Part shown: positions 17,676 to 52,997 of the stretch, piece by piece
Numbering within the stretch: position 1 is the stretch's first letter
How the letters are laid out: each line of letters begins with the position of its first letter
Translations under genes and position numbers: made by a program
The notes under the pieces: generated by a model
Database searches by the model: none
Told to the model about the DNA's origin: nothing
What the model saw: only the letters and a program-made list of their open reading frames with translations
From: Bacteroidetes bacterium 2013_40CM_41_45
Lineage (GTDB): Bacteria > Bacteroidota > Bacteroidia > AKYH767-A > 2013-40CM-41-45
NCBI GenBank assembly: GCA_002215675.1
Contig: NGFH01000001.1
Location: forward strand, 186,001 to 250,000
DNA length: 64,000 bases
Direction of reading: 5' to 3'

Positions 17676-18674
17676 CTATTTACCCTCATTCAACTGTTGA
17701 GTCAGTTTTTCAATAAGGCCTGCAAAGAAACTACTTTTTTCAGGATTAGACAACATAAGTTTACGGTACATTTCTATTGCTTTGAGCAGATTGCCCTGTT
17801 CGGCAAAAATCCCCGCAAGTGTCTCAGAAACAAGGTCATCATGCTCTTCCAGGCTCTGTTTTGCCATCTTTATCGGGTTATAAAACTCTGCCTTGGAAGG
17901 AATAATCCGCGGCTCAGTTTCTATAAAACGACTTATGATTTCATCGGTTGAAGAAGCTGCCTGGACACTTTTCTTCTTTTCGACAGGTTTGGCAGCAGGC
18001 TCCTTCTTAGTGGTCTTTAGCCATTCGGTGAAAGAATGTTTTCCCGATTTCTGGTCTTCTTCTTTTTTCTTTTCAGAAATTTCTGGCTTGATAATTTTCT
18101 GAGTAACTAACGTTTCTTCTTTAACCGGAATAGGTTCGCTCTTTATTTCAACTTTCTTTTCCTGTTCAATTTCAGGAACAAGAACCGTTTCTTTTTTAAG
18201 AGAAGAAATTTCCTCCAATCGCTTTTGAATAATGTCTGATGGATTACGGTTTTCTTTAACAATCTTTTTCTCAGGGATAATTATTTCAGGAACCTGAGCA
18301 ATAATTTCTTTGGTGCGTTGCTCTTTTCCTTCAGTAGGTATTTCTTCAGAGAAAATTTCCGTTAGAACGGGTTCCTCTTTTCTTTGGAGAGGGACGAAGC
18401 CTGCCTGCCCAGACGATGGCATAGGCGTGGCAGGCAGGGATGAGTCAGCATGAATCAAATGATAAAGCACTTTCCTGTCGGCAGCATAAGCCGCAGCAAT
18501 TTTCAGGTACTCGGGGTAGTGAACACTTTTTTGCGAATGGAGATATTTAACAAAAAGTAACTGCCCCGTCTGACAGTACGGAAAATCTTCGGTGAATTTT
18601 TTCAATGCAATGTTTTCCGTTTCCGAAACAGAGTCTCGATGTTCAAGAAGCTGAAGAAAAAGCTGGCGGTTCAT
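17676..18674 (-). CDS. Uncharacterised Lys/Glu-rich protein with TPR-like C-terminus
   Basis: 332 residues. Residues 1-85 are a helical domain containing FPYCQTGQLLFVKYLHSQ; residues 100-230 are low-complexity and rich in K, E, P and V; the last 60 residues (AEQGNLLKAIEMYRKLMLSN) read like one tetratricopeptide unit. No signal peptide is seen. The reading frame contains a 39-bp palindrome (18400-18438) encoding part of SSLPATPMPSSGQAGF. It is directly upstream of secG. Function unknown. Confidence 0.7.
   Translation of the reverse strand: MNRQLFLQLLEHRDSVSETENIALKKFTEDFPYCQTGQLLFVKYLHSQKSVHYPEYLKIAAAYAADRKVLYHLIHADSSLPATPMPSSGQAGFVPLQRKEEPVLTEIFSEEIPTEGKEQRTKEIIAQVPEIIIPEKKIVKENRNPSDIIQKRLEEISSLKKETVLVPEIEQEKKVEIKSEPIPVKEETLVTQKIIKPEISEKKKEEDQKSGKHSFTEWLKTTKKEPAAKPVEKKKSVQAASSTDEIISRFIETEPRIIPSKAEFYNPIKMAKQSLEEHDDLVSETLAGIFAEQGNLLKAIEMYRKLMLSNPEKSSFFAGLIEKLTQQLNEGK
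18400..18438. repeat. Palindromic element inside a coding sequence
   Basis: CCTGCCTGCC (18400-18409) and GGCAGGCAGG (18429-18438) are perfect 10-bp inverted arms around a 19-base loop. The total of 39 bases is a multiple of three and leaves the frame of the 332-residue protein open. It is much more GC-rich than its surroundings, which suggests insertion. Confidence 0.7.
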
Positions 18675-20680: not shown

Positions 20681-22138
20681 TTATTTTATTTTGTGAGCAC
20701 TAACAGCCTTGCCAATCAAAGTTGTCGCACTGCAATTGTCAGCAAGCACATCAACGTATTCTCCTTTTTTGAAATTCATTTTCGGAAACACAACTACGGT
20801 ATTCTGCGTGTTGCGTCCAAAAAACATTTCTTCCGATTTTTTTGATGTGCCTTCAATCAGCACGCGGTGAACTTTGCCGACTGCTTCTTTTACTTTTTCT
20901 GCTGAATGTTTTTGCTGCAATGCAATTACTTCCTGCAACCTGCGGAGCTTTGTTTCTTCAGGAATATCATCGGCATATTTCCGTTGCGCCAGCGTTCCCG
21001 GTCGCTCTGAATATTTAAACAGGTAAGAAAAATCGTATTTCACTTCTTCCATCATAGAAACGGTTTCTTTGTGTTGCTCTTCGGTTTCTCCGCAAAAGCC
21101 GGTCATCATGTCGGTGGAAACTCCGCAGCCGGGAATTATTTTGCGGATGGCTGCAATCCTGTTCAGGTACCATTCGCGCGTGTAACCGCGGTTCATGCGT
21201 TCCAGCACTTCGCTGTTGCCGCTCTGCACAGGAAGATGAATGTACTTACAGATGTTTTCATACTTCGCCACTACATACAAAACATCATCCGTCATATCCT
21301 GCGGATTGGAAGTAGAGAAACGAATTCGCAGTTCAGGATTAACTAATGCAACACGCTCAAGAAGATTTGCAAAAGTCACCGCGATGCCGTGTCCCCCCTC
21401 GCCATTTGGAGAGGGGGCTAGGGGGTGAGGCGTAAACTTATAACTATCAACATTCTGCCCCAGCAGAGTCACTTCGCGGTAGCCATTTTCAAAAAGCTCA
21501 TGCGCTTCGCGTACAATACTTTCCGGGTCGCGGCTGCGTTCGCGTCCTCGGGTGAAAGGCACAACGCAGAACGAACACATGTTATCGCATCCGCGCATGA
21601 TGCTGATGAATGCTGTTACTCCATTGCTATCTAAACGAATCGGGCTGATATCCGCATAAGTTTCTTCGCGCGACAACAAAACGTTCACGGCTTTCTGCCC
21701 GCCTTCAACAGTTTCAATAAGCGCGGGTAAATCCCTGTATGCATCGGGACCCACAACGATGTCCACTATTTTTTCTTCTTCAAGAAATTGTGATTTCAGC
21801 CGTTCCGCCATGCATCCCATCACGCCAATAATAAGCGATGGATTTTTTCTTTTGATGTAATTAAATTCTCTGAGCCGCCCGCGCACACGCTGCTCCGCAT
21901 TTTCGCGGATGGCGCAGGTGTTGATGAGGATTATATCTGCTTCGTTGTAATCGGGGGTAGTGGAATATCCCTTATCCGACAAAATAGATGCAACAATTTC
22001 GCTGTCAGAAAAGTTCATCTGGCAGCCGTAGCTTTCAAGGAAAAGCTTCTTGCCGTTGGCTGCCGGCTGCTGACTTTCCAGGGTCAGAGCTTCACCCTGG
22101 CGACCTTCCTCTATAACCTTATTATTAGTGTCAAACAT
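20681..22138 (-). CDS. miaB: tRNA-2-methylthio-N6-dimethylallyladenosine synthase
   Basis: 485 residues from the ATG at 22138; a -7 element (TACCTTTG at 22152-22159) argues against the longer frame to 22162. The N-terminal cluster cysteines ([31 protein letters not shown]), radical SAM motif [19 protein letters not shown] and C-terminal TRAM domain are all present. It adds the 2-methylthio group to i6A37 in tRNAs reading UNN codons. After NVDSYKF there is an extra stretch, [16 protein letters not shown], encoded by a palindromic element (21391-21432) and located in a loop that varies in length between homologues. Confidence 0.95.
21391..21432. repeat. Palindromic element inserted in miaB
   Basis: A GC-rich hairpin (CCCCTC, loop, GAGAGGGG) is followed by GCTAGGGGGTGAGGCG. 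The same hairpin-plus-tail grammar occurs at 28418-28455 and, in reverse complement relation to its gene in the same way, in dnaE at 50322-50367. The miaB frame stays open across it. Confidence 0.8.
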
Positions 22139-22151
22139 AATTTTGGGGGCA

Positions 22152-22159
22152 CAAAGGTA
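22152..22159 (-). promoter_or_regulatory. -7 promoter element of miaB
   Basis: TACCTTTG on the minus strand, 14 bases before the ATG at 22138. No TTTG at -33. Confidence 0.45.
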
Positions 22160-22223
22160 CAAAATGGCAGGATGTCAGGCACTGTTATTTCGGCAGAATT
22201 GGGCTGTATTTGGGTAAAAACAG

Positions 22224-25141: not shown

Positions 25142-25230
25142 CTACCCTCTGACTCCCTAAAGGGAGAACTTCTTCTGCTTTTGCCCGGAAGAATTTCTCC
25201 CTTTAGGGGTAAGGGGTAAAGCGATGGGAG
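25142..25230. repeat. About 90-bp element with imperfect inverted ends, copy 1
   Basis: Its first 28 bases (25142-25169) are identical to 44197-44224, and CCCTTTAGGGGTAAGGGGT (25199-25217) is identical to 44253-44271. The two ends are imperfect inverted repeats of each other (left core CTCCCTAAAGGGAGAA). The middle differs between copies. No ORF lies inside. Confidence 0.85.
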
Positions 25231-44196: not shown

Positions 44197-44283
44197 CTAC
44201 CCTCTGACTCCCTAAAGGGAGAACCCCCTCCTGCGCAATTGAGCCCAGATTCCCCTTTAGGGGTAAGGGGTGTGCGGTGGGAT
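44197..44283. repeat. About 90-bp element with imperfect inverted ends, copy 2
   Basis: Shares 28 identical bases at the left end and 19 at the right with 25142-25230; the central 28 bases differ. It sits between SCO and DUF420 genes within the cluster, transcribed along with it unless it terminates transcription. Confidence 0.85.
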
Positions 44284-49300: not shown

Positions 49301-50009
49301 GAAAAAAGTTTGTGACGGAAAATGGCTGCAGGCGAATGCCGTAATAGGATTTTATCCTGCTAATTCTTTTGGAGATGATATTTATCTTCAAAACCGAAAA
49401 GAAGAAATAGTGCTGCATACTATACGGCAGCAAACTAAAAAACCGGACCAGCATCGCAATATTGCCCTTGCAGATTTTATTTTACCAGTACCCCAAACAG
49501 ATTACATAGGGGCATTTGCAGTTACGACAGGAATCGGCATTGAAAAAAAGTTAACGGAGTTTGAAAAAAATCATGATGACTATTCCGCCATCATGTTGAA
49601 AGCGTTAGCCGACAGGTTAGCTGAGGCATTTGCGGAATTGATGCATGAAAAAGTGCGGAAAGAATTGTGGGGTTTCGCTAAGGATGAACATTTATCGAAC
49701 GAAGAATTAATCAAAGAAAAATACCAGGGCATTCGCCCTGCTCCCGGTTATCCTGCGCAGCCGGACCATACAGAGAAGAAAATTATTTTTGATTTGCTTG
49801 AAGTGGAAAAGAATACCGGAATTACTTTAACAGAAAGCATGGCAATGTACCCGACTGCCGCAGTTAGCGGGTTATATTTTTCACATCCCGACTCGCATTA
49901 TTTTGGCATAGGCAAAATCCAGCGCGACCAGGTAGAAGATTACGCAAAGAGAAAAAATATGAGCGTGGAACAAATGGAGCGGTGGTTAGGAAGCGTGCTG
50001 GCTTACTGA
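46377..50009 (+). CDS. metH: Cobalamin-dependent methionine synthase
   Basis: 1210 residues with all four modules. The homocysteine domain ends in [14 protein letters not shown]; the methyltetrahydrofolate domain contains [20 protein letters not shown] and [15 protein letters not shown]; the cobalamin domain has [13 protein letters not shown] with the lower-ligand histidine; the SAM-dependent reactivation domain carries [20 protein letters not shown]. It methylates homocysteine to methionine. It lies under a SAM-I riboswitch, and its 3' end overlaps the convergent dnaE-like gene by 24 bp. Confidence 0.98.
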
Positions 50010-52997
50010 CAAATCCTTTTCAGAAATATCATTTCTCGTTCTGAAGTCAAGGCGCTTCATTTCAATTACGTCAAGGCTGTAAAATCCAAACTCTTCCACA
50101 ACTTTTCCGGTGATGAGGTAACAACCTTTCCCCATGAAAGGAAATTTCTTCAGCACATCGGGAAAATGTGTAGTGTCAATCCACTTTCCCTCTTTATCAA
50201 GAAAAGTTCCGAAGCACATTTCTTCACCACGCCTTGTACGGGTTCTTTTCCGGGTAACAGAATAACCGATAATAGAAACCGTTTTTCCAAGATGGCTTTT
50301 TAATTGAGCCACTTCAGGCACGTGCTCCCCTTCTCCTTTGGAGAGGGGGCCGGCGGGGAACGAGGCGATTAATTCAAATGGAGAGCACAGAGAAAACCCA
50401 AGGATTTCAATTTCATCCCATGCATCATCCAGCCACGTGTGATGCAGTTGCGGCAGGTTGAAATCTTTTCTGCCTGTCTCGAATAATTCCTTTTCCTTCT
50501 TCGTTTTTTTCTCTGCTCCAATTATAGAATGCACATCCCAAAGCAATTGCTTCTTCGCTCTTCCTGTAAATTGAAATGCACCAATGCGGATGAGAATCCG
50601 CAGCTGCTCAACAGAAATAGAAACACGTTTCATAAAATCTTCGAGTGAAATGAATTCGCCATTTTCTGTTCGTTCCGTCAAAATATTTTCAATGACTTGT
50701 TTTTCAAGCTCTGCAATCAAATTAAACCCGAGATAAATATTATCACCTGAAATAGCCGCCAGGTATTTGCTCTTATTAATTTCAGGAGCGTGAATTTTTC
50801 CTCCGCACATGCGCGCTTCGTGAACATAAAACTCCGGTGCATAAAATCCTCCACCATTATTCAGCACTGCAACCATATATTCAAGAGGATAATATGTTTT
50901 CAGGTACATGCATTGGTAACTCTCCACTGCATACGAAGCGCTGTGCCCTTTGCTGAATGCGTATCCTGCAAAGCTTTCAATCTGCCGCCATACTTCTTTC
51001 GTTACTTTATCATCATATCCTTTTTCCCGGCAATTGTCAAAAAACTTTTTTTCCACCTTCTGAAATTCAGCGCGGGCGCGGTATTTACCGCTCATGCCTC
51101 TTCGCAGCATATCGGCTTCTCCAAAAGTTAATCCTGCAAAGTAGTAGGCAACTTTAATTACATCTTCCTGGTACACCATCACGCCAAATGTGTCATGGAG
51201 AATTTCATAAACCGCTTTGGGGGTTTCATAAGATGGCGGCCTTCCTTTGAAACGAAGAATATATTCGCGCATCATTCCCGATGATGCCACCCCCGGACGA
51301 ATGATAGAACTGGCAGCAACTAAATCCAGGTATGTTTTTGCCTCCAGCTTGGTAAGCAGCATGCGCATGGCAGGGCTCTCGACATAGAAGCAACCCATCA
51401 GGTTAGCAGTTTCTAAATTTTTTCTCACCAGACCATCTGCCTTGAATTTTTCCGCAGCATGGATATCAATTTCATCTCCCGTGTTGTGTTTAATAATTTC
51501 AACGGCATCTCTTACTTTTCCCAGGCCGCGCTGGGCGAGAATATCAAACTTGTACAAACCCACATCTTCCGCCTCAAGCATGCTGAATTGTGTGAGTGGA
51601 AAATTTTTTGGTGGAAGAGCAGTCGCTGTATAATTATGGATGGATTCCTCGGAAATTAAAATGCCTCCCGCATGAATACTCAGATGGCTTGGAAAAGAAT
51701 AAAGCAAACTTCCATATGAATAAATAAGCTTTGCAATATGGTCGGGAGTTTCGCTGTTTTTGCGGTTATCAAGTAAACTATCAATCTCCGCTTTGGGTAG
51801 GCCAAAAACTTTTCCAAGCTCGCGCGTAACGGCATTGTCTTTCATTTCACTGTAAGTTGCCAGCAGCGCAACGCGGTCTTTGTATTTTTTTCCATAAGGC
51901 GAACGGTAAAAAATATAGTCAATCACATCATCGCGTTCGTCAGAAGAAAAATCAATATCAAAGTCGGGAGGATTGGTGCGCGAAGGATTGATAAACCGCT
52001 CAAAATATAAATCCAAATCAATGGGGTCTACGTCTGTTATTCTAAGCAGGTAGGCAACAATGGAATTAGCTCCGCTTCCACGTCCCACATAAAAATAATT
52101 TTGGCTTTGAGCATAACGGACAATATCATGGTTGATGAGAAAGTAAGAAGTGAATCCCTGCGAAGTGATTACATCAATTTCTTTTTTGAACCGTTCAGAA
52201 ATTTTTTCATTCCGTTGCGGGTAACGATAGGAGAAGTTGTTTTCGCAAACTTGCAAAAGCAAATCATGGTCATCTTTTGCATTACCCGTAAAATATTTCA
52301 GATTCTTATTCTTTTGAAATTGGAAATCAATATGACATTGCTCCAGCAGGTTTTTTGTATTGTAAATTAGCTGAGGGTAATTCCGATAAATATGCAGCAT
52401 CTCTTTTTCCGAAAACATGATTTCATCAGGCTGTGCCTGCTCGGTAAGAGGAAGCTTGCTGAGCAACGTGTTGTTATCAATTGCCCGGAGAAGGCGGTGT
52501 GCATTAAAATCGATTTTGTTTCTGAATGTTACGGCAGAAAGCATAACTAACTTGTGCGGATGATTTTTCCATTCAGAAAGATTCAATCGTAATAAATCTA
52601 ATGGTTTGATGCCGATATATTCATTCTCATTCAGCTTAACATAAGCAGGTGAAAAAGGATAAATTACAAATGCATTTTCAAAAGCAGGTGAACGAGCAGG
52701 AATGAGTTCACCGGAATGCAGGTGATGCGAAAGAAATGCATTTAACTCACGGAACCCGTCCCTGTTTTTTGCAATGCCAATAAATTTTTGTTCAACTCCG
52801 TTTCTAAAGTCGATTCCTGCCACAGGTTTTATATTCGCCTTGAAAGCAAGCCGGAAAAAATCAAGAATACCGGAAGTGTTGTTAATATCTGTAAGCGCCA
52901 GGCACGAAATTTCTTTTTGCTGCGCCTCTGCAAGCAATTGTGCCAGGCTCATAGTCCCGTATTTGAAACTGAAATATGAATGGCAGTTGATGTACAT
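49986..52997 (-). CDS. dnaE: DNA polymerase III alpha-type subunit, ImuC/DnaE2-like paralogue
   Basis: 1003 residues, shorter than a main replicative DnaE. The PHP domain is degenerate: NCHSYFSF instead of HxHSxxS and LTDINNTSG instead of LTDHGN. The polymerase site [17 protein letters not shown] and the [20 protein letters not shown] region are intact. A helix-hairpin-helix region and an OB fold ([20 protein letters not shown]) follow. This set suggests a translesion type of polymerase, though no imuA or imuB gene is near. [14 protein letters not shown] near residue 890 is encoded by a palindromic repeat (50322-50367). Confidence 0.88.
50322..50367. repeat. Palindromic element inserted in the dnaE-like gene
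   Basis: CCCCTTCTCCTTTGGAGAGGGG hairpin with tail GGCCGGCGGGGAACGAGGCG (written in two adjoining parts). Read on the gene strand it aligns to the miaB copy from CGCCTC through CCCCCTCTCCAAA to the CACG end, but it is translated in a different frame. It falls between the catalytic part and the OB fold. Confidence 0.8.

Follow-up and report, generated by a model that had tools for sequence, protein, structure and literature searches.

On the minus strand of the window, the 64,000-nucleotide stretch of DNA that was analysed, lies an open reading frame (ORF) of 332 residues (17676-18674) with conserved N- and C-terminal parts and a variable linker, which holds a 39-bp palindromic element at 18400-18438. 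On the plus strand, a sequence search of the window places the left arm, CCTGCCTGCC, at 18400-18409 and the right arm, GGCAGGCAGG, at 18429-18438; between them is a variable centre of 19 bases (18410-18428) with a GGC/GCC core. As the initial annotation had claimed, the arms form a perfect 10-bp inverted repeat, complementary at 10 of 10 positions within a total of 39 bases, and the G+C content of the element is indeed far above that of its surroundings: 69% versus 39% for the rest of the ORF, in a window of 42% G+C. On the minus strand the element reads (S)LPATPMPSSGQAG and encodes the peptide SLPATPMPSSGQAG, which is placed between ...LIHAD and FVPLQRKEEP and forms the start of a Lys/Glu-rich linker.

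The 332-residue ORF has no Pfam or NCBIfam match. Relatives are encoded in 36 of the 41 other genomes of the order and have the N- and C-terminal parts in common, but their linkers are too variable for the borders of the insertion to be placed. None of the 29 aligned relatives has an LPA...QAG segment. The window contains six perfect 10-bp inverted repeats with spacers of 15-25 bases, compared with a mean of 1.35 in 20 Markov-1 resamplings. Judged on the window alone, the departure from chance is modest; judged on the whole genome, with 12 exact-armed places for this palindrome and none for the reversed pattern, it is decisive.

These 12 places come from a search of the forward strand of the source genome for both arms separated by 5-35 bases. 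It returned 13 matches, one place having been counted twice through an extra TGCC; the reversed-pattern control had no match in the whole genome. A covariance model built on the 12 perfect-armed copies added at least seven decayed copies, and the seven that were kept have one to five arm changes each. The resulting set of 19 own copies, termed family A, is a lower bound, as the model search scored 150 of 2608 candidates and matches of 31 and 36 bp (L261, L263) and four of 19-20 bp were left out. The initial annotation had suggested that the genome may carry several palindromic families entering genes, the 39-mer among them, and had named uniqueness or conservation of the insert as outcomes against this; neither was observed. 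With 12 perfect-armed and at least seven decayed copies, the insert is not unique, and family A is dispersed and multicopy in the source genome. Nor is it conserved across the order, where exact-armed matches occur in 3 of 42 genomes including the source. In the two others (of 41), they lie on contigs other than the one that carries the match to the 332-residue ORF.

In family A, CCTGCCTGCC is followed by a variable stretch of 19-22 bases, with GGC/GCC at its centre, and then by GGCAGGCAGG. The arm is a doubled TGCC, all 12 perfect-armed copies have CCTG/CAGG ends, and a GGC or GCC core is present in the 19-22-base centre of 11 of them; the constancy of the arms in this alignment is imposed by the search for perfect arms. 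The predicted hairpins have energies of -20.8 to -28.7 kcal/mol. A conserved inner stem was considered and rejected: in five genomes, pairing within the centre does not exceed what column shuffling gives, and the conserved structure therefore consists of a 10-bp stem and a large loop. An excess of the half-arm TGCCTGCC (129 and 127 matches versus 25 and 16 for the reversed sequence) was not counted as evidence, because the single-arm sites in 15 stretches are nearly all lone and partnerless. One copy (L002, 1501-1542) stops some 15 bases short of the likely start of a presumably LpxD-like gene, so named from reading its translation, and occupies the position expected for the ribosome-binding site.

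Four of the 12 perfect-armed copies are located within protein-coding sequence. Besides the window ORF, the hosts are genes for MazG (L008), an RlmL-like methyltransferase (L003) and a 4'-phosphopantetheinyl transferase (L010). Compared with its relatives, MazG has gained 20 residues, RlmL 31 residues comprising two palindromes, and the phosphopantetheinyl transferase 14 residues, that is 42 bp, the length of the element. The insert is present in 0 of 29, 0 of 24 and 0 of 19 aligned relatives, respectively, which agrees with the view of the initial annotation that the palindrome is an insertion and not a conserved part of its host. The aligned relatives are members of the order with fetched loci; matches existed in 38, 40 and 35 of the 41 genomes. 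The insert is also missing from the solved structures of MazG (3cra) and RlmL (3v97). These family A copies occupy conserved genes at sites that are empty in relatives. MazG gained 60 bp, 21 more than the length of the palindrome, which shows that insertions are not always exact. The proposal that the palindromes enter coding sequences in multiples of three holds for all four in-gene copies, whose lengths across the set are 39, 39, 42 and 39 bp, but lengths divisible by three also occur in 8 of the 15 other own copies, so that length alone is weak proof.

The reading frame is more uniform. All four own in-gene copies are read in the frame that gives xLPA...QAGx; over the 19 own copies, the three frames are open about equally often (31, 30 and 35 of 38). 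Five copies from other genomes that are bracketed by recognised protein sequence (L082, L119, L141, L302 and L303) are in the LPA frame as well, which brings own and foreign bracketed copies to nine of nine. Outside the bracketed count, L080, L138 and L042 are also in this frame, and L048, located in a C-terminal tail, is in another. The residues encoded by the centre of family A are not conserved.

The window also carries palindromes of a second family, family B, with the sequence GCCTCACCCC..CCCCTCTCC..GGAGAGGGG. One is located at 21395-21436 on the minus strand, in the ORF 20681-22162, which from its translation is taken to be MiaB-like; this copy serves as the empty-site reference. Another is located at 50321-50367, likewise on the minus strand, in the ORF 49986-52997, for which the name dnaE is that of the initial annotation. 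A third lies in RlmL (L003, about 1487-1570), and family B is found at one further place (L278, around 1193). The family B palindromes in genes preserve the frame, and their presence in the MiaB-like ORF, the dnaE-named ORF and RlmL supports the earlier suggestion that several palindromic families of this genome enter genes. Two inverted repeats of yet another palindromic family, CCCTAAAGGG/CCCTTTAGGG, are found at 25155-25208 and 44210-44262; they have similar flanks (TACCCTCTGACTCCCTAAAGGGAGAA...) and overlap no ORF of at least 150 aa.

Families A and B are not independent. When the 39-mer is excised from RlmL and its flanks are joined, the result, TTGACGCCTCACCCCCAA, aligns with the miaB copy of family B, TTTACGCCTCACCCCCTA, and the alignment runs through the joint uninterrupted (score 41, reached in 0 of 500 shuffles). 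The unbroken alignment implies that exactly 39 bp were inserted, without target duplication. At this one site with a readable empty state, the insertion, as reconstructed, corresponds exactly to the palindrome, and the alignment places the 39-mer within an older in-gene family B palindrome.

A similar arrangement is probable in the window ORF. Although the 39-mer itself does not match the miaB/dnaE family, as had been stated, this does not extend to its neighbourhood. The segment at 18367-18393 on the minus strand, which adjoins the element downstream on the coding strand and encodes PLQRKEEP, resembles a decayed family B core: aligned locally, it scores 29 with the dnaE copy, a value that none of 500 shuffles reaches. 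Its scores with the miaB and RlmL copies are 22 (4 of 500) and 18 (26 of 500). The distance from the CCTCTCC core to the element is 7 bases in both the window ORF and RlmL. The window copy lies beside, and probably inside, an older miaB/dnaE-type palindrome. The possibility that family B is a general part of the element was rejected after comparing the flanks of the 19 copies with three family B copies: the extended composite matches at RlmL and the window ORF only, and the other 17 own copies have no family B neighbour (next best score 18). Family B resembles family A in consisting of in-frame palindromes within conserved genes of the same genome, and joins it in RlmL and the window ORF, but it differs in sequence and serves as a target for family A.

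More widely, a scan of GTDB genomes for the two arms with a gap of 15-25 bases found at least 118 stretches in many phyla, which include chance matches in high-G+C genomes; only nine viral stretches show the arm pattern. Complete searches of 29 genome entries, of which two (G019 and G045) look like one assembly, gave 1 to 32 copies per genome and none of the control. Element-rich examples are Lentimicrobiaceae and Sphingobacteriaceae metagenome-assembled genomes with 8-12 copies, and among isolates Gelidibacter japonicus and Paucihalobacter ruber have at least one match each. After dropping copies with less than 150 bases of flank and duplicate contexts, 131 distinct copies were obtained, 23 of which lie in ORFs of at least 150 aa (22 distinct ORFs, all scanned with Pfam). 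The five bracketed copies are found in ribosomal protein uL2 (Daviesbacteria), the C-terminal subunit of transketolase (Yanofskybacteria), the head domain of the CCA-adding enzyme (Levyibacteriota), a CcmB-like protein (Bacteroidetes) and an acyltransferase/ELM1 protein (Omnitrophota). Since TGCC doublets readily form palindromes, the same arms in distant phyla may or may not reflect common descent. In a Sphingobacteriaceae metagenome-assembled genome (MAG), two family A elements of identical sequence directly adjoin each other in head-to-tail orientation (G052:C2:128241-128318, L280). An Omnitrophota MAG (isolate Modern_marine_planktonic.mb.39; L086, L095, L137 and L148) has 32 matches, where the flanks lengthen the palindrome in some cases (gtgtcactttgg...ccaaagtgacac in L137).

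Taken together, the 39-mer most likely belongs to a family of short mobile repeats that form hairpins and are non-autonomous. The comparison with relatives of other genera and with the paralogous repeat suggests that family A moves. Insertion would be carried out by a trans-acting enzyme that recognises the arms, probably in single-stranded hairpin form. Copies landing in genes would survive only if the net length keeps the frame, and they would also need a loop or linker site and the frame that gives a benign Leu-Pro-Ala...Gln-Ala-Gly peptide. What counts against simple copying is that the arms are fixed and the centres differ, which is partly an effect of the perfect-arm search.

No mobilising enzyme and no linked transposase was found. 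The element could itself be a REP that a REP-associated Y1 tyrosine transposase (RAYT) moves as a single-stranded hairpin, an explanation with a small but appreciable chance of being correct. Its size, hairpin form, missing target duplication and occasional in-gene copies are REP-like, as far as REPs are described in the consulted part of PMC3733652. A Y1_Tnp match is present in all 14 element-carrying genomes tested, and at one Y1_Tnp locus (L336) a whole element lies about 800 bases from the gene. However, of 10 genomes of the same family with no copy of the element, 9 also have Y1_Tnp, and at 28 of the 31 Y1_Tnp loci examined the fetched flanks contain no CTGCCTGCC arm (any arm at 3 of 31), so that a RAYT as the mover is not supported. 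Moreover, neither end of the element carries a GTAG or CGTC tag, and no such tetranucleotide is dominant or strongly conserved in the flanks of the 19 copies. The sole Y1_Tnp match of the source genome (L028, 1501-1842 and 1880-2010; G000:C1:282186-282527) is interrupted by an internal TAA and accompanied by hairpins of another type (TTGGCTTTAGCCAA); its fetched flanks hold no family A arm. This gene and its hairpins resemble a decayed REP-transposase pair that is unrelated in sequence to family A. Direct repeats bear on another possibility, namely a MITE that a DDE transposase excises and reinserts and whose target duplications have since eroded. With no adjacent direct repeat of even 2 bp at 16 of the 19 own copies and at 131 of 167 copies overall, no adjacent target duplication of at least 4 bp at 18 of the 19, and none at the reconstructed empty site in RlmL, this is unlikely. 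The own copy L262 does have an adjacent direct repeat of 8 bp, and the foreign copies L080, L083 and L138 are flanked by repeats of 7 bp. Adjacent repeats of at least 4 bp occur in 7 of 148 foreign copies, above the roughly 0.8 predicted from mismatched flanks; yet some of these are tandem arrays or palindromes, and L080 and L083 sit in tandem-repeat arrays. A weak, symmetric target preference speaks for the mobile-repeat reading and would also suit a MITE: outward position 3 is T in 24 of 38 own flanks versus 30% expected, and in 19 of 36 and 26 of 56 flanks of two other groups, for which the background is that of the source genome only.

Two further explanations were weighed. Each palindrome may have arisen independently in place by template switching, the arms being alike since TGCC repeats easily become palindromic. 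The doubled-TGCC arm makes such convergence plausible across phyla, and some foreign matches lie in high-G+C or low-complexity sequence. Twelve identical-armed copies in one genome, with a common central GGC/GCC and near-constant length, in a genome whose window has 42% G+C and whose reversed-pattern control is empty, make this origin very improbable for family A. Similarly, it can hardly be expected that the LPA...QAG loop or an mRNA hairpin is a selected feature regulating the host genes, given that these genes are unrelated to one another, that relatives have no insert, and that the centre residues vary. The single frame common to all bracketed in-gene copies, the strength of the predicted hairpins and the copy just upstream of the likely LpxD-like gene start would fit such a role. 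A mobile, non-autonomous hairpin repeat is the preferred reading, which in substance bears out the initial annotation.

In-frame palindromes in protein genes are best known from Rickettsia, Wolbachia and the tagged REPs. The rickettsial palindromic elements (RPE; Ogata et al. 2000, reviewed in PMC2229807) are described, in the part of the review consulted, as palindromic repeats of 105-146 bp, found both in intergenic DNA and, with the frame kept, within conserved protein genes, whose products tolerate them. Like them, family A is both intergenic and in frame within conserved protein genes, and it shows the features of the RPE-like class: multicopy palindromes located in conserved genes with the frame kept and with relatives empty. 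Unlike RPE as described there, it measures 39-42 bp, which sets it apart by size, belongs to Bacteroidota, combines constant arms with a variable centre, and has arms that are also found in Patescibacteria and Omnitrophota records. According to the consulted part of PMC3733652, GTAG and CGTC REPs are short hairpins of many lineages with stems of 5-13 bp and loops of 2-20 (GTAG) or 4-5 bases (CGTC), mostly intergenic but in some cases within genes. Family A is likewise a short, sometimes intragenic hairpin; it differs from these REPs in its loop of 19-22 bases, the missing tags and the fact that no associated transposase was found. It works like RPE and tagged REPs but, by size, tags and linked transposase, is a member of neither.

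In the open-licence literature on palindromes in protein genes, the matches listed concern RPE, REP and MITE, and family A is absent among them. The arm sequences and PAGRQAG, searched as text in the same literature, gave seemingly unrelated matches among those listed. As far as open-licence literature shows, family A, its single-frame rule, its nesting and the same-armed counterparts elsewhere are new.

The finding means that a differently built family of palindromes enters genes in frame in a Bacteroidota genome and is nested there in a second such family. Same-armed counterparts lie in frame in uL2, the CCA-adding enzyme and transketolase of other phyla. The single-frame rule and exact, duplication-free insertion open both the insertion mechanism and the filtering by selection to direct tests. 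They also caution that an LPA...QAG segment of a metagenomic protein may be an insertion, not a conserved motif. A broader scenario is possible but tentative: a single hairpin design, whose CCTGCCTGCC/GGCAGGCAGG arms stay constant while the centre varies freely from lineage to lineage, might be spreading in Bacteroidota, Patescibacteria, Omnitrophota and other groups. An enzyme other than the usual REP transposase would insert it with no target duplication, and it would nest in other palindromes and keep to the single LPA...QAG frame even in uL2. If true, short peptides would have a general way into essential proteins that has so far not been described.
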